Assembly (NCBI GenBank): GCA_024195265.1
Contig: JAJLRJ010000001.1
Location: forward strand, 60,692,289-60,756,288
Source of the DNA: Dendrophyllia cribrosa
Lineage: Eukaryota > Cnidaria > Anthozoa > Scleractinia > Dendrophylliidae
Reading direction: 5' to 3'
Length of the DNA: 64,000 bases
Shown here one piece after another: positions 29,901-59,900 of this stretch (the stretch's first letter is position 1; each line of letters begins with the position of its first letter). The notes below the pieces were generated by a model. It was not told the origin of the DNA. It made no database searches and worked only from the letters and a program-made list of their open reading frames with translations. A program made the position numbers and the translations under genes.

Positions 29901-32900
29901 AGTTCACATTTGGAGGAAGACCTGACAATGATAAACAAATAAACTGAAATTAAACAGTAAGTTGAAGATATTAGTTCATAAAGGGCCTTCACTGTATGTT
30001 AATTTTTAGTCATTATTTTAGATTTTGCTGAAATTTGCATCATTTTTTTTTTGCATGTGGCCCAATGTGTACATGTATGTAAAACAATTCCCCCAATTTT
30101 TTTCCAGTTTACACAAAATCTGAGCAGAACTGAAAAAAATTGAAGGAACATAGGCCCTTTATGCACCCAACCATTCAATTTATAGACTGTATATAATAAA
30201 AATAATTCATAAACAAATAAACCTCATGACAAACAAGAGGCTCCAAGTAGCCTATACTCATGCGCTTGAAACTAAGACATGTTGATTGAGGCTACCAATT
30301 TTTCTCTTCTCACTTTGAATATTTTAATTTATTGATTCCCTATCAAATCCACACTCATCTAATACTTCCCAAACCGTGAATTATTTCTGTTACATTTTAA
30401 AAGACTACTTTTAAAAGCTATGAAATCATTAAAAATGGACATTAACCCTCAGAAGCACATGCAAACTTATTCACCCACCTTGGGTTTTTGCGGTGTTACA
30501 ATATTTCGAAAATATTTTACATCTAATAGATAGTCTGTGATGTGCTCTACAAGATAAGGTAAATATTATGGGTTTTAGCACTGCTGGGGTCCGTGACATC
30601 ATCCAAAATGGCCGACAATATGGCTGCAATCTTGGATTTTACTAAAAATTCAACTTTATCCGGAAAAATGCAGAAATTGCAAATATTTTTTGCTAGAGTG
30701 ATACAATTGAACATTTTGCTGCTTTTGGTAGCAATTAATATGTTTGATTTTTTATTCAAAAATGGGTTGACCTCGTGCTACTTACGATGTCATATCTTGT
30801 TACTATAGCAACCAGTTGTCACCAACTTTACCAAAATGTGTCAAAAGGATAAACAAACAGCTACTGAAGACGGCATATGCCAACAATTAACTCTCTTAAA
30901 AAAATCTGACAAAAACCTTAAGGATGCTACCCCCCCTGTACAGTGTACATGTACGTCAGAGGGTTAATATGCCATGCATTCCACAGTCCATAATCCACAA
31001 AAGTCCAGTCCCGAAGTCTAAATTTTTTTGTAATCTGATGAGTATAAACTGTCGCTTTTCCGTGTGTTTCTACTGTTCATTTGTTAATAAAGTTTTGAAA
31101 TTACTCACTACAGGCAGCGAGGACTGCTACTACACAGGCAAAAAAATGTGGAATAAATTGACAATATGCTTACTGGTCCGAGAGACCGATGTTTTGCTCC
31201 TTGGAAGAGCTCTAAATTAAAAATAGCCCTTATTTTTACAGAATCTCAACAAATTCGGACTCAAGTTGTATGCTGTGTATAAAAGCAACGTTCACCTCGA
31301 TAGGAAAATTACAGGATTGACTTATACACCAATAAGACCAAATTACTTAAAACGTATGTCATGCACATGTGCGTAAGAAACATTTGTCATCATTAATGTA
31401 TGTCTGAATTCTCAGAATTATATCAAAACATTTGTACAGAATTGGGAAGTTTGAAAGTTTAAAACTACTACTACAACAACACCAACACTTGGTAAATGTT
31501 TTTATTTTTATGTGATCTTTATTCAGGGATTCTGACAGGATGCGTGGGTGCGGGACCGCACAATTCGGTCAAACCCGCACAATTCCGCACAATACTGAAA
31601 TATTTGATTAAAATGTTAATTAAATCAGGTATTTCTATTGATTACCAAGATTTCGAGAAACGTTTTAGGCTATTTTCAGCCCATTTTACTTCCAAACAAT
31701 CGAGAAAACCCTCGCTTTCCTCGAACAGCTTGAGAGGATCGATATAAAAACAACAAGGCGTTCTCTTCGCCGTCCTGGGAACTAGTCTCAGTTTTACTTC
31801 TTTCAGACTTCCTACAGATTTTTTCGCGTAGCTTTTTAATTGTTGTTTTTCTTAGCGGCCTGGTTATATTTTTTCGAGTGCTTTTGCTTCCTCTTTCAGT
31901 TTAGAAAAATGTACCCGGTCACGCCGAAATGAATGTCACTCTGTCTGAATTATTTTTGCAAAGAACTTATCAAGTTTGTGAATCGACAAACAAACTATTC
32001 AAGCGCTGGAACTTCGGATTGATAGGAGAAAATTATTAAGTTCTGATCAGAATACTGGATTTGATTTTTTCAATCAAGTGAAAGACGTTTTCATTCAGTA
32101 AAATGCAAAACAACCATGCTATCAAATTACATTTAGCACGCAATTTGCATACATCTCGAGGTTGTGTTTTTGCGGCAAACTTTCGAAGAAATTGTGTGAA
32201 CCTTTAATGGAAATTATTCAAACCACATAAAATGTACGGATTTTTCATAAAGGAACTCGCAACAGATCGGAAACATTTCATTTAAGGACATTCGCGCGAA
32301 AATCTTCTAACATTGATTTTTTTATAAAACTTTTGCCACAGCTAGGTTATGAGTAACTCGTGTCAGAAATGCAAAAAAATGAGGGGGTCACCGACTTCGT
32401 TTCTGAGATACATGTAAGCTATCTGAAAGGCGACCCTAATTTTGAAAAATTGGTCTTCCTTACGGGATGTGACCCCAATGTCTGTTAGTCTAAAAATATT
32501 GCAAATGAATCTCTAAAATGCAACTTTCTTTCCCAAATTTTATGCGAGTAGGTCTGTTCAGTAAATTCATTCACCTGGTGACGTTCCTTGAAGTAAATTT
32601 CATCTTTACACGACAGCATTTGCAAACTCTGACAGCCGCAAGTTGGCAGGTGATTCGACGGCTCGCGGGTAGAAAAATGGAAAAAATTTAAACTTCCTAC
32701 ATTGATTTTTTGTTCATTTTTTCACTATCTGTCGAGAATTGGCAAAGAAAATGATCTATGAAAAAACAATTGGGGTTCACCGACCATCCAAGCGTGTTAA
32801 ATCTAAGCAAAGTTAACGCAACGGCTATCAGCCCTTTATGTGCTTAGATTTCTTCTCTTGCGCGTGCGCTCGTGCATGATGTAGCATGGCGTTGCGACAT

Positions 32901-47300: not shown

Positions 47301-50300
47301 TAAATTATAAGCGAAAAGGAGAGAAAAAACACTGTTGTTTTCAAAATAAAACAGAAAAACACATGGCATGCGTCCAGAATCAATAATTTTTGCTTCGCTC
47401 TTCCGTACGTTTCAATCTCTTTGTGAAGTTAAAAACAATTCATATTTTGTTACTACCATAAAAACCTGACTTAAACAATCTTTCTAATTTGAAACTACAT
47501 TTGAATAAGTAAAATACATTACCATATTGCACATGAAATTCTTTAAAGAGCCATTTTAGTAGTGATTTGGTAGAGATGAAACAAGGCCGCTTGAAAAAAC
47601 CTGAGTTGTCCAGATTTCGCGGTGTTAAGCTTTTTTTCGTTCCTTACTCCGTCGTCATCTTCTTAGAACTACTAAAATATTCAATACTTTTTGCTCTTCA
47701 GTTTTGAACCTCAAAATGTGATTTGGTAGCGACGAAAATAGCCGTGAAAGTAAGCTGTCCATATTTCGCGAAGCGCTTGTAGTTTCCTCGAAGTTTTCTT
47801 GCCGATTTGAGCGGCCGCGCGTACGCGCGTGGAGCTGAAAACCTCCTTCCAAATAAGGGCAAAAATTCAATCCGCGATTCTGATTGGTCGGTTGGGAATT
47901 CTAATAATCCCCAGCATAGTTCTGAACATATAGGGGGAAGTTGCACGCTTCTACGTGATAAGCTTCTGATACTATATATTATATACCCTATATAATATAT
48001 ACTATATTAAGAAGACATTAAGGGAATCCATTTGATAATGGTTTAACTGTATTGAAAATAAAAATGAACTCAAGATTTGCGAAATCAATATTTGCAGAAT
48101 TAAGTGACAATAAAAAATGACATGTTAATTTTGTGAAACACCAAACATAACTGTGTCAGTAATAATTTGCATAATTTTTTTTATAGTGCAGCTTTCTTTA
48201 CTGACAGAGTGTGTGGTCCAAACAAGAAAATGTTTATTTCATTTGAAATCTATGTTTTGCATTTTTCAAGCAGGTTTTGAAACATGAGAAATGCAAAATA
48301 TGTGCATGATATCCTATCCTTAAAGTGTCTATATTGCCTGCAGGGTTTTTCTGGTTTTGGTAACTATATGAAGCGTAGAAAACTGTCCATAACTTTTTTT
48401 TGGCATTTTGACCCGTTTTCGCCTGGAAAATTCGGTTTAAAGTTCCCTCTTGAGCCACGCCCTTCAAAGTCGACCGCGCACTTGGGGATTGGTGTCTAAA
48501 TGACGTCACTTCAGGAACGGACCAAAGCGTTCAGCATTTACTCACGCATTTGTTTATTTGTAGCGTGTTCGGCGTATCTCTTCTTTTGAAATCAGTCTCA
48601 AAATAATTTTTTTCAGTAATTGAACTTCTTTTTGAAGAAAAATATTCATGGATTATTCAAGTGACGATGATTTGGCATCCGAAAACAGTGATGTTAGCAG
48701 CGTTTCCACGGATTCGAACGGCGAAGCGATCGAGTTCGAGGAACATTTGGAAGAGCCGAACTCTGATGCGGTTAACAGTGATCGGGAAGAAGGTCCGTAC
48801 TGTGAGGAGCCGCTAGCAGACGAAGAATGGATTGAAGAGTATAATCGCGAAAGGAAAATAATCGAGGAAAGGCAGCAAGAGTTGCAAAACCGACTCGAAA
48901 GAGTCGTAGAAAGAGATACTTGGTAAGTGCGCCGCCATCTTGTTTACCAACCTGCCAACAAACTTTAGTAGCAAAAGACGACTATCGAAACAAATACTAA
49001 CAAATTGGCATTCAAATATTTCTTTTAGGTGCAAGTGTGGTAATTGCAACGTTGAACTATTGCAAAATGCAAGGGAATGTGAGTGTTGCCAAGAAATAGA
49101 TGGTTGCGTGCGGTCACTCGGTAGCGAGTTAGTTCTTCAAGAAGTTGACTCCTCGCCCAGCTGTGTTACGCTGCATCCTGGCTTTAGTCCGGTGTGTTTA
49201 AGTCGATGGTCTTTGCGGTCTGCAGCTGCCAAATATAAGACCCAAGATGGCAGAAGATACAGGCAAACAGGCACGGAAGACGAGTAAGTTTGCATCATGT
49301 TTATATAATGAAGTAGTGAGTTGCGTGTCCGGAGAACCGCGTGTCCCATTGTTTACAATTTAATATATGTATGTAGAGGTATTTGCTCCAATGCAGCTGC
49401 AGTCCCTTTACATTCTGTTGAAAGCAAATATTAAGTGTGGTCCTGTTAATTCTTTATTCTGCTCCAAGGAAAGGGATATGGATATGTGGCCAAGTTAAAA
49501 ATTTAATTATTTTCTCTTTCCAGTGCATGTCTAAAAAGCGTTTATGATTTACTCACGCATTTGTTTATCTGTAGCGTGTTCGCGTGTTTGGCGTATCTCT
49601 TCTTTTGAAATCAGTCTCAATTATTTTTGTTTTAGTAACTCCAAACCCTTCCACTGATTGTAACAATGTATTTTCAATTTCAAAGGTTCTTTCGTGTTAC
49701 AGCATACCGTGAGTTCACACAGTTGGTGCATGGGTACTTGGGTCCCCGACGTATTCCTCTGCCAGCATGTGCTTATCATTTGATAAGAAAGGAATTCGGC
49801 ACTGAAGGTGGCAACTTCGCTGGTTATGAAGATGACGAATGAGTTATGGGGCAGTTGACATGTACATGTAGAACTTTATCTCAGTATGGCTGTTATATTA
49901 TTTGGCAGTTTATTTTAGTGCTATTAAAAGTTTTATTCACTCAATACATTTTCTTTGGCTTTTTCACATTATTGTGGAAGTGTTGGATACCATAATTTTA
50001 TTTACAAATAAAATGAGATCATATGTTGAAATTATACACCAAACGTATGAACAAAAGTATCACTGAAGTTGAAAAATCCTAGTTTCAAAAAGCCCCGGAG
50101 GGGGGGGGGGACTACCACATAAAAATGTTGGGGTGCTTGTTGGAAATTTTTGAGAAACACCCTAAAAGGTACCAGAATCTTGTTTGATGGGCGCGGCCCA
50201 AAATAATTTTACCCCTAAGAGGTACCAATTCTAAAACAACACATGTCATTTTTTTTGCCTCATACCCTAAAAGGTACCACGATAATTCTAATGGTGGTCA

Positions 50301-53300
50301 TTTTAGATTTTAGTACCCTAAGCGGTACCAATCTACAAATTTTGACCCCTAAAAGGTACGACGAGCACCCCTGTCATTTTTATATGGGAGTCCCCCCACG
50401 GGCAAAAAGCCTAGTTAACAACAAAAAAAAAAAAACCTTTACTTAGTTCACATGAACCAACTGGGACAATTAATATTTTTCAAATTGACTCTGGTCTCTC
50501 TTGACAGTCTGCCCTTTTGTGCCCCTTCATCGGCTTTTTACATCTTCGACATTTTTTGGGTACAGACTCAGCTGCCTTCTTCCTCTTAGATGTAGCTGAA
50601 CTGGACTCTGCACCCCTCTTTCTCTTCTTAGATGTAGTCATGCTGGCTGATTCTTGCTCCAACACTTGTGCCACTGAAAGAAAATTTGCATTACTTCAGC
50701 TCTTGTTGTTCTTAAAATGATTATGATTGGCTTTCTTGAAATGATGATTCTTCCTTGTAATGCTAAAATAACCAATTCATTTCTTATAATTATTTTCCAC
50801 AATTAAAGATAATTTCAAAGAAATCACACTCAAGTTGAAAATCTTGGTTCCATTGGAAAAAGCCACAATGTTGATGGCAAATTAAAACCAAACAATAAAT
50901 TATGTGTATAAATTAGTTTATTGTAAGTCAAGATTTACTTACATGGTGTTGTTGGTGGAACATTTTTTACTGTCATCTCTTTCCTTTTCTGTCTCTTATC
51001 CAATGCGCTTTCACGAGTTTCTTTTTCCAGCATTGAGTTCATGGGAAGGGGGGTCATATTCTTCAGCTCTTTGGCTACATCACATAGGGTAGTACCTGTC
51101 TTGGCAGCTTCAAGGAAGGTCTGGTATATTTCCTCAACATAATCTAAAATGAAATCATAAAGTGAAGGACCCTTTAGCACAAAATTATTATTTTTCGAGT
51201 GGTGTTGATGGGGGGGGGGGGGGGGGGGGGTGGGGGGGGGGGGGGGTATTGGCCTACCCTGCAAGCAGAGACCCCTTTGACCATCACAGATTGGCATTTT
51301 ACTTGTAATAGTTATACAAAACAAGGCACACAAACTAAAGCCAAAAAATTACCATATTTGGGTTGTATCCTGATATCCCTTACAGAGGCTTCTCCATTCT
51401 TAAATTTTGGGTAAATCAGCTTCACCTGATCTGATCCATCTTCCTTCGTTTTGGTATCTCTGACAAGGTTGTAGTTAAAATGTATGGCAGCAAGAATATG
51501 CCTAGAGTGATTCCAGAGATATGAGTATTAGTACAGTGTGGTATCTGCTGTTGACCAAGCATGAGATCCTGATATAGAAATATTGGATCAATTTTTATTT
51601 AATTTCCATTCACATGTGAGGCAAAACAAGGAAAATATCATTACATCAGGTTTAATTTACACAAATTAACTTGGTCATTTAATTGGCATTTCACTTTTTA
51701 CAGAGTAAAAATAATTTTAAAAGCTACATTTGTTATCCTAAACCAGCAGTTCAACCAAGGAAAAGTGAGCAGTTCAGATGATTGTGGATGGGTCTTGACT
51801 CAGAGCATAGTTGAAGTAGAAAGATAAATTATAAAAATTTTGACCTTGTTTGAATAGTTTTTATTTATATCCAATATCAAATATCCTCAATCCACAAAGT
51901 TATAATGCTGTTGCAGTTTGACTGTCATCCCTTTTACACAAACCTGCAAAGCATCCCAATATATGAAAAAGATATCATTTTTGGACAAAAGTGGTTCAGG
52001 ACTGAATGAAACCCTTCAAGGCAACTTGTCTGGGCAATTGGAGAGGCCTGCATAATGCCTTTCACTAGTCTGTTCTCAGTCAGGGCAGCAACAACCTTCT
52101 CGTACACCACAGAGTCTGAAAAAAAAAATCTCTATGAGCAGTCATGACATAAGAAATTAATGTAACAACATTGTTGATTGGGCAATTTAGTTTTAATGGA
52201 TGGAGGATATAACATTGCTTTCCAAGGTACAAAGTCAATGCTCTAGAGGGTGGACATAAGCTTTATATGAGGTTTCTTGGAACTGAAATAAATTTCAGTT
52301 AATTGTTGAAAATTTGACTTATTAGCATTGCCATCACTAGGACCTTTTCTCTGATTGGGAAATAGGCCAGTAATATTATGAGCATATAGAATTAAAAATA
52401 TCATACTTGGAAGAAACCACTTTCTGTGCTGGATGCTGCTCCCATGTCCACATTTATTGAAGAGAGGGTCATCCAAGTTGTTGTGCTTATTAATTATGTG
52501 ACTTAGGAAAGACTTGAACTTAGCCCAGATAATCCTCCCTGTTCCACACACAGTTGTTGTTGCACACCAGTATAAGTGATTCTCACATGGTCTTATCCAC
52601 TCAGTTAAACTCTCGCAACCGCTCTGCTTTGAGATTTTTGTGAGGACTTTCCTGATCTCTGAAAAATATGACATCAGAAAATTGAGACAAGAATATTACT
52701 TCTTTTTATAACACACACTTGTTGTTGTCCTAATTGTTGCAGCAATAGGTAATAATCATATGATTCTAAGTCCAAACTGCAATGTTTATAGGTCGCTAGA
52801 ACTGAGTGAGTGACCATGTAGGGGAGGTGTCTGCCTACACTGTATGTGATGTTTCCCTTAGTGGATGTTGGACTGTACATAAAAGGTTATTGTCCCATGG
52901 CCACTTGCTTGACTCTTGATATTTGTTTATGAATAAATTTCAAAAAAAAAATTTAAATCATAAAACTGTCAGTGCTTACTTTTCTTTATGTGCCAAAGAT
53001 CAAAAAAGTGAGTGATGTTACTCAACTTCTCGCGCATGTGCTTTGCTATTGAGACATGTCGGTCAGAGATGAAAGTCCCAATAGCGAGGCCACACCCAAG
53101 AAGGTATGTCATGCATCGCTGAAATCCAGCATACTCCATGGCAGGGCTGCTACCCACTTCATTTCTCTAGGAAAGATAAACAACAAAATTTGATGTGTGC
53201 AGTGTCATATTGACCATGAGCTGATAGCATTTTAAAATAGCAAGAAGATATGCTAAACTGGGTTCCTAGAAAACAGCTAGTTCAAGTAAGAGGGGATAAA

Positions 53301-53841
53301 ATTAATATGTTTGACCTTAATCTTATTTTCCAGAATGAGCTGTTGATAAATATTTTCAAAAGGAGTCTAAAAGGCAAAACACCTTTAATTGTATAAATTG
53401 GAAGAAAGTTCCCGGCCCAGGCTAAAACTCTGACCTTTTATTCCCAACAGACTGATCAGTGTCTTCAAAACCACACAAATCTAAAATGACTATATCTATA
53501 CCATCAAATCATACATAAGGGTCCCCCTCCTGGTGTTTCAGTTCAAACAGTAAACAATGGTTCTATTTTGTACCTGTACAAGAGCAAAATGAATGATGAG
53601 TGGCAAGGTACAGCAAAAAATTGTATATGCACCAAACTTGGCACTGTGGCCCATGCTATCATGTCTGCCATCTCCAGATATAGTGAGGGGCTTTCCAATG
53701 GCCTTGAGTTTATTGAATATTTCCTCCTGATACTTTTTCCAGTGAATATATATTGCTGGAAACAGTCTTACCTTAAATTGAAAAAAAAATAACATGAGGC
53801 TATAACTTCATTAAATGCAACATTTTCATGGGTATACCCCC

Positions 53842-53909
<68 letters not shown>

Positions 53910-56900
53910 AATTAATTAATTAAAAAATTAAAAATACTCTTGTGAATACAAACACTCCAGGTATGCCAATAAAATACTGAATGGTTACGTGTTATTTTTA
54001 GTGGATGCAAAGACTGTGAAGAACTTTTTTTCTCATATCTGTTAATATAATACTTTATACTTACACGTTGATGGTGAAAGAATGTAGACAAGGAAATGCA
54101 TGCCAAACCCATATGTTGGAAGATCTGAAAAGTCTTGCTTGCGGAACCACCAGCCAACAGGATAGCAAAGCACAGAAGGAAATTTCCAGCAGGGGTCTTT
54201 GTGCCAGGCATGTAGGGTTGGCTGTACCACACATTTTCTTTTTTGGGACATTTTGGATTTTGGCACCATGTTGTGATCACTGCCATGGTACCAATTTCAC
54301 GGGTTTCGACTAGTGGATGGTCAGCCCGGCATGAATGACAGAACTGGAACAGCAGGAGAAGCTTTGACAAGAATACAATGTGTTTGGGACTTGTTCGTAG
54401 ATTATTATCATGTAACCTGCGATTGAAACGAAAAAAAGACGTTTTCATTACCTTGGCATAAATAAAAATTCAATTTTAAATCCAACCGAGGGGGCATAAA
54501 AAGACACCTGTTGGTAAGTTGTTACCTTGGCCCTTTGATGATGTTGTCATCTTCATTGTCTGTTTCGGTCTCTGTCCCAGTATCAGTGTCAGTGTCTGGC
54601 TTGTAGTTTGCATCAGACATGTCATCATAGTCAGGCTCCTCCTCTATCACTTCAAAGTCATCTTTTTCTATTTCCTCATCAGGCTCTACAGGTTCACCTT
54701 CCCCTTCAGCATTGCTGTTTTCTGCTAGTGCACCCTCATCAACATTACCAGAAGCTTGTTCATAAATGCGGTCACACTGAACACCTTTATTTGAAAATGA
54801 CAAAAACAAAAGAAATTGCAATATAATTAGATTCATCACAATATTTCAATATGATTTGCAAACCTGCAACCGCAGAATAATTTTGTTTCTGAGTCGAGGT
54901 TGTATAAAATAATTCTGTGAAATTTAAAAAAAATGGAATAAAAAATATGAAGATTAAAAAGCGATTCAAATTACAGTTTAATCTGTCATTGTTTATTTGA
55001 CTAACACACTTACTTGTTGAAGTAGTAGCAGGCTTTCTCATCAAGGCATCATTTTTCTCTTTCAACACTATCACCTTGTTACCCATTTGGCGCAGTTCCT
55101 CTTGCAGGCTGGCACAGCCAGTACAACCTTTCGTCTGGACTGCAAAATCCTTTGTCTGTAAACAATAACAAGGTTATATTCAATAGATGTGAAATTATGA
55201 TTAAGTCCTGCACTCCAGTCCAGGCAAAAACGCTTTTTGGAAAATTTGCACATATCAATTTTTTCGCTAGGTTATGTTCAATAGAGGTGAAATTATACAT
55301 TTTTCGCTAGTATAAGCTTACAAGCTTATTGAAATAGAGCGAAGGTTTCTATATCCGTAAAATTTCTACAATTCTCAGAACGACAATTATACATAAAAGA
55401 CGCTTCAGTTATGCCTTCAGAAATTTTCAGTTTTCGAATATTGGGACCTTTTAAAAATGCACACAAATACGCCAAACAATTTGTAAAAAATGGAACTAGT
55501 GAGCAGCACTGTGCGAACTAAAATTGTAAAACTTGTTTATTTCTCCTACGCGTTTCAACCGGGTATATATAGCGGACTTCGAATTCATCAGGGTGTTTTA
55601 CAAGTAAAAGTTACAAGCTTTTCTTTAAACACAACGCAAAACAAAGAGAACTTGTTAAGGATTTACGTATAGGAAACAAGACAAAAGTTTTCGCAAGTCC
55701 TAACTAGCGGGGTGTAACATGTGTGACATATTTTGGTTATGACATACCGTACATGTATGCACGACATGTTATATTTATTTTGATTTAGTACTGAATCTGC
55801 AAATACAAGACGTTTCAGTTATGTTTAGAAAATTCCAGTTTTTTACGCTTGGAAGCCTTCTAGAAATGGCAAACATATTCGCCAAACAATTGTACTCACC
55901 AGAGGTTCTGGGTCATATTCATGATTCGATGGAATCGGTGTGGTGCTTGATGAGCACGCGAGGTCAACATCATGGCGTGTCGCTTCCATCTCGTCAGAAT
56001 CTTCGCAAGATACCGCTTCATTGTCAGCAGACTGAGAAGAACATCCCACTGAATCAGAGGCAACGATTTCCTTGAGAATCTGCAACATTATAGAACAATT
56101 CGAGAAAGTAAAAATTAAAATGTGATAATAATTTTTGACATCGCGTTTATAAACAAACTCAAAACGCACGCCATCACGAACCTGACGACGACTTCTGCTT
56201 GATAATTCCTCCTTTTCCCAAGTGTTTCGTTGAAATTTGGGGATAGGCACTACACCGATAGCATCTGTTATGAGTTCTCGACGCCTCTTGACACTGGCAA
56301 ACGAAATCTTGTCGGTAAAATCTTCTGAAGCGAAGTGACACGAACACACACGGGCCGAAGCAGTTGGCTGCCACTTTCCTCGCTTCAACTGCACGAAATC
56401 AATCCATTTTTTTCTCCTTGCCTTTGCTTCACTGCGATCATCGTTTAAAAACGGAATTTTATGTAGGGAGATTCCTTTCTCCTGGTTATTCGTATTTGAA
56501 CACCCAAAAACAACACATCTATCAGGCATCGTGCCTCACGAACTGAAAGTAGACGCAACTTGTGAAGATTTCTTTTGCGGGAAAATCTCCGTTCTTGAAG
56601 TGACGTCATGTGACGTCACTAGGCTTAGGCTCTTTTGGGCTTGATCGCTCGGCCAACCTTGAAGGGCGTGGCTCAAGCGGGAACTTTAAACCGAATTTTC
56701 AAGGCGAAAACGAGTCAAAATGCCAAAAAAAAGTTTTGGACCGTTTTCTACGCTTCATATAGTTACCAAAACCAGAAAAACCCTGCAGGCAATATAGACA
56801 CTTTAACCCATTGACACCTGAACCGCCCGTAACCGCCCGTACAAGACTCCACTGCTTTAAAAAATTGTAACTTTCTCAATCGTGCGAACATTGCCTTAAC

Positions 56901-59900
56901 TAGCAGTTGTGAGCATTGAGTAGAAAGTCTTTCAAATTGAGATACCCAATAAACACAAAAAAGTCAGCGATTTTTGCAGAATATCAGCGTTTGAATTTGG
57001 ACAATAACAAAAATTACCGTTTTTAACGTCATAGAAAAACAACAAAAATCACGTTTTTGCCTTTAGTTTTTTTTATTCAAATCATCGTGGCAAACCCAAA
57101 AGTCAACATTTACAGCAAAATTCAGTCGTAGTCCTAGCTTAGCAGTGAATGTTTTTGCTCTTATTCGTTGCTCGGGCCTAGCTACAGCTTCCTATACTAG
57201 TGCATACTCACCTTGCCTCGATTTTCAACATCACCACCGCACTGCATGCTGGGAAAAAGCCAAAAATTTTGACAGCGTTCCATTCTTTCCCCACACATTT
57301 CATATTTATACTAAGTCCACAGCCACCCCGACCCACCGCCGAAATTTCGCGCTTGTTGTATTCTCCTGTGGTCGCAACTTCCAAAATATGCTGCGGTAGG
57401 TCGAGAAATTCATCCAGAGTCGAGTCCCAAAGCCACTTCGTTTCCAGGCGGCCATTTTTCCAGTTCAACGAGCAACGAGCCAAATTCGTAAACGAAGTAC
57501 AACACCTAACTCGCTTCATTGAGAAGTGGACTCAGAACTACCTCCAAGCTTAATGATGCTCACCAGGCAGCTACTAAAGATGAAAAATGGCTGTGAACTT
57601 ACCAAAAATCGTAGATAATTCATATTGGACCCTTTATTGCAAATCAACCAAGCAAAATGAGATCGTCACAATGACGTTTCCAGTAAACTCGAGCCTTCAG
57701 TGTTTTAGAACAGCAGTACTTTCAATGGTAACTCCAAATATGAAGTCACGAAATCCTATGGGGCGTGTGTATGCAGAAAATCACTCAAAAACGTAAAAAT
57801 CCTCAGGTGTGAATGGGTTAATGAAGAAAAATAAAGGTCACGTGACCAGGGCTTTTGACACCCGCCGGCGAAAGTTAGGGTTAGGGATAGTTCAAATCTA
57901 GGGTTAGTGTTAAGATTCTAGGGTTAGAACAATTTCTAGGGTAAGGTGTAACTTGGCTCAGGGCCAGGCCTAACTTAGGGTTAGGTCCCAGGTTTGGGGT
58001 TGGCCAGGTTACGTGATAGGCAATAGTATCAAACTTGATCACCCAAGATGAACTGACCCTCGACTACTGACTGTCACCAGCTGTTCTAACTCCACCTCTT
58101 ATGTCTAGTTTTGAAAATCACCACCCCTTGAAGTTGGCTTTCATGCAACTTTCACCTTTGCACTAAATATTGGCCAGCAACTAGTACCCTCCCCCCCAGA
58201 TCTTGATGCATATGCCTGTTTTCAAATTAAATAGCGATGACATGTTCCTAGTCTTAAGGGTTTTTTGTTTGACTGGTTTAAGAGCCAAAACTATCAACTG
58301 TAAGAAAAATAGATTTTTTGATTAACCCATTGACACCTGAACCGCCCGTAACCGCCCGTACAAGACTCCACTGCTTTAAAAAATTGTAACTTTCTCAATC
58401 GTGCGAACATTGCCTTAACTAGCAGTTGTGAGCATTGAGTAGAAAGTCTTTCAAATTGAGATACCCAATAAACACAAAAAAGTCAGCGATTTTTGCAGAA
58501 TATCAGCGTTTGAATTTGGACAATAACAAAAATTACCGTTTTTAACGTCATAGAAAAACAACAAAAATCACGTTTTTGCCTTTAGTTTTTTTTATTCAAA
58601 TCATCGTGGCAAACCCAAAAGTCAACATTTACAGCAAAATTCAGTCGTAGTCCTAGCTTAGCAGTGAATGTTTTTGCTCTTATTCGTTGCTCGGGCCTAG
58701 CTACAGCTTCTTATACTAGTGCATACTCACCTTGCCTCGATTTTCAACATCACCACCGCACTGCATGCTGGGAAAAAGCCAAAAATTTTGACAGCGTTCC
58801 ATTCTTTCCCCACACATTTCATATTTATACTAAGTCCACAGCCACTCCGACCCACCGCCAAAATTTCGCGCTTGTTGTATTCTCCTGTGGTCGCAACTTC
58901 CAAAATATGCCACGGTAGGTCGAGAAATTCATCCAGAGTCGAGTCCCAAAGCCACTTCGTTTCCAGGCGGCAATTTTTCCAGTTCAACGAGCAACGAGCC
59001 AAATTCGTAAACGAAGTACAACACCTAACTCGCTTCATTGAGAAGTGGACTCAGAACTACCTCCAAGCTTAATGATGCTCACCAGGCAGCTACTAAAGAT
59101 GAAAAATGGCTGTGAACTTACCAAAAATCGTAGATAATTCATATTGGACCCTTTATTGCAAATCAACCAAGCAAAATGAGATCGTCACAATGACGTTTCC
59201 AGTAAACTCGAGCCTTCAGTGTTTTAGAACAGCAGCACTTTCAATGGTAACTCCAAATATGCAGTCACGAAAACCTATGGGGCGTGTGTATGCAGAAAAT
59301 CACTCAAAAACGTAAAAATCCTCAGGTGTGAATGGGTTAAAGTGATTGAATTTCAGGATCAGTGCATATTGCACTACAACATTCTGTACTTTGTCAATCA
59401 ATCAATCATCTTTATTTAAACACGGAATCCCATTCATAAAAATGCTCATTCAGAGAGCCATGCAAAAATCATGCAATAACAAACAATATCAGATAAATAT
59501 GGTCATTAAAATTGTATTATTAAATTACAAATGTGAGATAAATGATTTCAGGCTTGTCTGTCCTTTAACAGGGCTCGAAATTAAAAAAAATTCTCAATCG
59601 CAATTTGCGAGTAATTCCTAAAATTTTAGTCGCAAAAAAAAAAAAACTTACTACTACTATCGGAACCGAAAATCAGAAACGAGAAATTTCTGAGAAAGTC
59701 TGAAAAAGTGCGCCTGTGATACACTCCTTAATTGGAAACCACGCGGTTAATGGAGCATGAAATCGACGATTAAGTCACTCAACATTCAACATGAATTTAA
59801 CAGGATTTTTCGGATAAAATTACAACTACCTGCAGTTACAAGTTAGACACAAGACTGTTGAATATAATTCCTTTATTAACTAGGCCGTAAAACAGTCAAC

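Follow-up and report, generated by a model that had tools for sequence, protein, structure and literature searches.

A Kolobok-type transposon carrying a P2X7 ballast-domain gene in Dendrophyllia cribrosa

A TTAA-flanked element with two convergent genes

We analyzed a 64-kb stretch of the Dendrophyllia cribrosa genome (64,000 nucleotides of contig JAJLRJ010000001.1; hereafter the window), which contains a mobile element at positions 48324-56802. The element is bounded by a TTAA on each side and by long inverted ends, and it encloses two convergent spliced genes, a KolX gene on the plus strand and a transposase gene on the minus strand (Table 1). Both gene models were predicted from splice signals and homology, and both reading frames are free of stops. 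This layout agrees to the base with a preliminary description of the stretch. The window contains 8.75 TTAA per kb, so TTAA alone is weak evidence for an element. A blind repeat search of the window recovered inverted arms of 160 nt, 94% alike and 8.2 kb apart, and such a pair is not a chance occurrence. The termini of the element are AG and CT, which fits the 5'-RR ... YY-3' rule of Kolobok transposons.

The transposase gene has 12 exons, running from 56529 down to 50480, and every intron is GT-AG. The predicted protein of 877 residues carries a THAP domain at residues 5-91. Its putative catalytic residues, placed by motif and not by structure, are D461 or D465 (both in GDGRHD), D528 and E673, with DLWH as the C/DxxH motif. 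They are conserved among the relatives of the protein. In addition, an H2CH zinc-finger motif was found (H609, H614, C625, H627). H609 and H614 are nearly invariant among relatives; C625 and H627 do not figure among the conserved positions, as some relatives are gapped there. The Kol0 lineage of Kolobok is marked by the lack of a second (CCHC) zinc finger downstream of the first D. The segment from D461 to D528, scanned by eye without a reference alignment, contains no CCHC of the usual spacing, and C480, C481 and H488 in it are conserved. The Xenopus Kolobok transposases likewise have THAP, DDE and H2CH motifs; in the available text of that paper (PMC6004289), the THAP domain is named as usual for Kolobok and the H2CH motif is named as well. 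The assignment to Kolobok in the preliminary description was borne out by the TTAA target, the RR/YY termini and the THAP, DDE and H2CH motifs together.

The KolX gene has three exons with GT-AG introns and encodes 228 residues. P2RX7_C (PF20478) was the only Pfam family found in the protein, and the P2X channel domain was not found. A single-sequence phmmer search of the PDB with KolX gave nothing at 0.001 and P2X7 only at E 0.22; a profile of 22 sequences matched the P2X7 chains. All seven zinc-motif cysteines of the P2X7 ballast aligned in the KolX of the window. For a relative with a predicted structure, the top 14 structural matches were all P2X7. By this evidence the plus-strand protein is firmly placed as a relative of the P2X7 ballast domain, as the preliminary description had proposed with a hidden Markov model search as the check.

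That description had also presented the domain as binding both zinc and guanine nucleotide. The cysteines of the zinc core are complete, as expected of a zinc-binding domain. The nucleotide part fared less well: by alignment, only two of the five residues of the guanine-nucleotide site of rat P2X7 (R546, H547, R574, R578, K583) are kept. Compared with the P2X7 ballast (PF20478; 6u9v and other P2X7 entries), KolX shares the fold, the seven cysteines and the equivalents of R546 and R578, whereas H547, R574 and K583 are not kept. KolX also differs in standing alone, with an acidic N-terminus and without the P2X channel, and in having its ballast domain split by an intron, unlike the P2X7 ballast. 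An in-frame ATG at 49666 would yield a 58-residue product of exon 3 alone, with one of the seven zinc-motif cysteines.

Given this evidence, we assign the element, with a probability of about 0.93, to the two-protein Kol0 type of Kolobok DNA transposons. Kol0, the first-described Kolobok families, encode two proteins, the second of which is KolX (Kojima and Bao 2022, PMC9587614). According to the text of that paper available to us, KolX is clearly similar to residues 476-595 of P2X7, folds like the ballast domain and has seven conserved cysteines, and Kol0 is present in vertebrates, annelids, cnidarians and sponges. The element in the window resembles these families in its TTAA target, 5'-RR/YY-3' termini, DDE transposase and ballast-fold second protein with seven cysteines. 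KolobokP is defined by its long direct repeats at the termini together with a His-Me nuclease, and the window element has neither: its ends are inverted, without terminal direct repeats, and its second gene is P2RX7_C, not a nuclease. The window family is not named in the available text of PMC9587614, and the element represents a new family of the known KolX-carrying Kolobok kind.

The preliminary description could not say whether the pairing had been described. It has been: the pairing of a ballast gene with a Kolobok transposase, and the proposal that the P2X7 tail came from such an element, were already published in 2022, as the available text of PMC9587614 states. The main text of the Xenopus Kolobok paper (PMC6004289), as far as available, contains no mention of KolX. 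Relative to the available text of PMC9587614, the additions made here are a leader duplication, a deletion copy with KolX plus THAP, and a genome-wide count of convergent pairs. Since the central claim is in print, this work contributes confirmation and material rather than a discovery. Genome-wide counts confirm independently that the P2X7 ballast domain moves as a constant component of a lineage of DNA transposons, and the family, which is low in copy number and has open genes, is material for testing the role of KolX.

Copies of the family and linkage of the two genes

The left end was searched in the 627-Mb D. cribrosa assembly (22 contigs, the window being on contig C1) and was found at 21 places, 13 at 86% identity or more and 8 at 78-84%. 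Four independent insertions had both ends: the window, C21 (L039), C20 (L040) and C4 (L041 and L042). The copies on C20 (L040) and C7 (L043) share flanks and were counted once; C7 appears to duplicate that C20 stretch. KolX was kept in all four insertions. The preliminary description had named its absence from other copies as the outcome that would speak against a stable pairing, and this outcome was not observed. Of the three sites besides the window, two (L039, L040) are flanked by TTAA at either end; the C4 copy has it on the right only, and its left end is damaged.

The C21 copy, reduced by deletion to 2.2 kb, retains KolX and, of the transposase, the THAP exon alone, and the C20 copy (L040) has lost the catalytic half of the transposase. 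These two internal deletions are independent and start 19 and 73 bases, respectively, past the KolX stop; the whole KolX gene is retained in both. Among the incomplete copies, one on C18 retains both genes and lacks the right end, an old copy on C20 keeps KolX and the last transposase exon, and one piece on C1 is an end fragment alone. Four of the eight places at 78-84% identity were examined, and these were not counted as copies of the family: neither KolX nor transposase was found in the 3 kb fetched; in L049-L051 the end piece sits inside a larger shared repeat, and L052 has one end only.

The KolX frame is uninterrupted in the C21 copy and in the C4 copy, the latter with a 9-nt in-frame deletion. 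In the C20 copy it is damaged by a 1-nt deletion and in the C18 copy by deletions of 9 and 8 nt; L043 carries an insertion, and the old copy has several indels as well as a stop. The pairwise ratios of nonsynonymous to synonymous substitution rates (dN/dS) against the window KolX, which rest on small counts, were 0.44 (C21), 0.78 (C20), 0.13 (C4), 0.44 (C18) and 0.32 (old C20 copy). L043 (0.76) was excluded because it duplicates C20 and aligns poorly around its insertion. A decayed KolX relative at C18:11.36 Mb (L018), with four stops and with exon 3 not detected in the stretch examined, gave 0.67.

A genome scan found at least 75 KolX matches in at least 46 clusters and at least 63 transposase matches in at least 32 clusters, with 150 of 182 KolX candidates and 52 of 610 transposase candidates scored and the duplicated C7 sites included. 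KolX lay within 12 kb of 26 of the 32 scored transposase clusters, against 0.06 expected. Of these linked pairs, 25 were convergent and one was on the same strand. Near the remaining six transposase clusters KolX was not matched. For 20 of the 46 KolX clusters there was no transposase nearby among the 52 of 610 candidates scored. Such lone clusters might be domesticated genes; one of them, at C20:23.3 Mb (L045), does contain the last transposase exon.

The genome also contains a second family, whose KolX is about 39% alike; it was read at four loci that are 96.9-99.9% alike. Its two genes are likewise convergent and its ends are inverted (89%). A THAP exon (4.5e-11) and a ballast exon (2.6e-10) were identified, and the ballast part of its KolX is without an intron. 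It was considered as another transposon superfamily and rejected as such, being Kolobok-type with the same layout. Upstream of its ballast exon, L034 contains a tandem direct repeat at 502-1533 (units of about 510 bases, 92% alike), which by our reading of the gene model sits in the first intron of KolX. In L037, homology to L034 starts at the presumed donor of exon 1.

Corresponding pairs, adjacent by locus number and assigned to contigs of equal length, were found in two other anthozoans: LOC114539600 (KolX) and LOC114539599 (transposase) in Dendronephthya gigantea, and QZH41_008384 and QZH41_008383 in Actinostola. In viral contigs, 17 and 19 stretches fitted the patterns, and none encodes a relative of either protein. 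The linkage across the genome shows that the pairing of KolX with the transposase is no accident and that KolX is a standing part of the transposon lineage.

Probable role of KolX and proposed capture of the ballast domain

By analogy with the family, the transposase would use its THAP domain to bind the inverted ends and its DDE center to move the element between TTAA sites. KolX, in which an acidic tail and a helix precede a helical domain predicted to be held by zinc, may assist the transposase, for example in the assembly or control of its complex with DNA. Most linked copies retain the gene, and it is kept across phyla; KolX therefore probably works with the transposase in transposition and is not a passenger. 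We met no stated role for KolX in the texts consulted. The preliminary description had left the choice between cargo and accessory protein. The cargo half is the less likely one, because the gene is a standing part of the lineage. In principle, one transposon could hold a host-derived module, and many animals have ballast proteins that lack a P2X part, according to the available text of PMC7016195. However, the idea that this one Kolobok copy took up a host gene by chance is very improbable. It would make an independent capture of each linkage, in the 26 scored clusters, in two families of the genome and in the two other anthozoans, and KolX has been described as constant throughout Kol0 (PMC9587614, in the text available).

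Two further explanations accept the linkage and place the benefit elsewhere. KolX might target the host and shield the element, perhaps by damping a nucleic-acid or nucleotide sensor, with no help to transposition. In P2X7, an immune receptor, the ballast is a cytoplasmic module, and KolX is intact in the copy that consists only of KolX and the THAP exon (L039), both of which would suit such a role. Yet the guanine-nucleotide residues are mostly not kept, and KolX has no known expression, localization or partner in the host; we consider it unlikely. Alternatively, the DNA beside the left end could be needed in cis, as a promoter or as end-binding sites, and the protein kept with it. The starting points of the C21 and C20 deletions, which spare the whole gene region, speak for this explanation. 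It draws on those two deletions only, and the conservation at the protein level, with cysteines kept and dN/dS below 1, argues against it, so that we rate it as less likely still than a host-directed KolX. An accessory function in transposition remains our preferred account of KolX.

The available text of PMC9587614 derives P2X7 from the fusion of a P2X4-like gene with KolX and proposes Nanor as a domesticated KolX. Capture of the ballast exon by P2X7 is thus a published inference. Free ballast proteins were found by Rump et al. (2020, PMC7016195), whose main text, in the part available, never mentions transposons; the NANOR-like proteins described there resemble KolX in being small and in having a zinc-cysteine ballast domain. 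The tree of ballast domains suggested in the preliminary description was built from 112 of 122 alignment rows (the other 10 were too short) and the second KolX family, 113 domains in all. The branch of rat P2X7 is very long and none of its neighbors is supported, so the tree is silent on which KolX gave rise to P2X7. The marking of domains inside TTAA elements succeeded for few rows, the DNA context having been read for the D. cribrosa genome only.

In two annotated proteins of other corals, transposon domains appear to be joined to host domains. In the Acropora muricata 'CUB domain-containing protein-like isoform X3' (P0090), KolX follows directly on a truncated CUB domain. The first half of the CUB domain is at 191-238 (E 0.0019, below the Pfam cut-off), and the KolX part runs from C238 on, which corresponds to the border of exons 1 and 2 in the window. 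That border splits a TG|G codon in phase 2 (W92), so a Kolobok in a host intron could hand over the ballast domain in frame, and judging from the protein sequence the junction glycine of P0090, G237, would fit the same phase. In the Montipora capricornis TRAF6-like protein (P0067), a Kolobok-type THAP domain lies between the TRAF zinc fingers and the MATH domain. Each could stem from a faulty gene model or from a transposon exon that was spliced into a host gene. We tentatively raise the possibility, which we think doubtful at present, that the ballast exon is a ready-made splice module and P0090 a present-day capture, the same kind of step as in P2X7. If this is true, the CUB-KolX join would be a living analogue of the birth of P2X7. 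The CUB-KolX isoform is possibly new; our literature search was not aimed at P0090 or P0067.

Feature coordinates and neighboring elements

Table 1. Features of the Kolobok element in window coordinates.
Feature	Position	Strand	Remark
Left target-site TTAA	48320..48323	.	
Left terminal inverted repeat, starts AG	48324..48480	+	147/157 match to right end
Leader copy 1, upstream of KolX start codon	48524..48619	+	84% repeat with 49535-49638
KolX exon 1, acidic N-terminus and helix; ends within tryptophan codon	48648..48922	+	
KolX exon 2, zinc-cysteine part of ballast domain	49029..49283	+	
Leader copy 2, KolX intron 2, shortly before exon 3	49535..49638	+	Present in other family copies
KolX exon 3, C-terminal ballast part, stop codon included	49686..49842	+	
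Transposase exon 12, stop codon included	50480..50673	-	
Transposase exon 11	50943..51143	-	
Transposase exon 10	51353..51501	-	
Transposase exon 9, contains putative catalytic E673	51944..52115	-	
Transposase exon 8, contains H2CH motif (H609, H614, C625, H627)	52407..52658	-	
Transposase exon 7, contains D528 and DLWH 549-552	52980..53166	-	
Transposase exon 6, contains GDGRHD 460-465	53574..53771	-	
Transposase exon 5	54065..54416	-	
Transposase exon 4	54526..54784	-	
Transposase exon 3	55014..55155	-	
Transposase exon 2	55900..56079	-	
Transposase exon 1, THAP DNA-binding domain	56182..56529	-	PF05485, E 2.1e-13
Right terminal inverted repeat	56646..56802	-	
Right target-site TTAA	56803..56806	.	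Common to abutting TTAA element 56803-57821

At gathering scores, Rfam gave 0 matches in the 64-kb window. Two TTAA-flanked copies with TTAACCCATT ends lie at 56803-57821 and 58322-59340 and are alike at 1010 of 1019 bases. Judged by these TTAACCCATT ends, they are candidate piggyBac-like elements. The left TTAA of the first is the right TTAA of the Kolobok element, and two kinds of TTAA element thus stand end to end. A 526-bp stretch at 30442-30967 with inverted TTAACCCTC ends is possibly a further small TTAA element.
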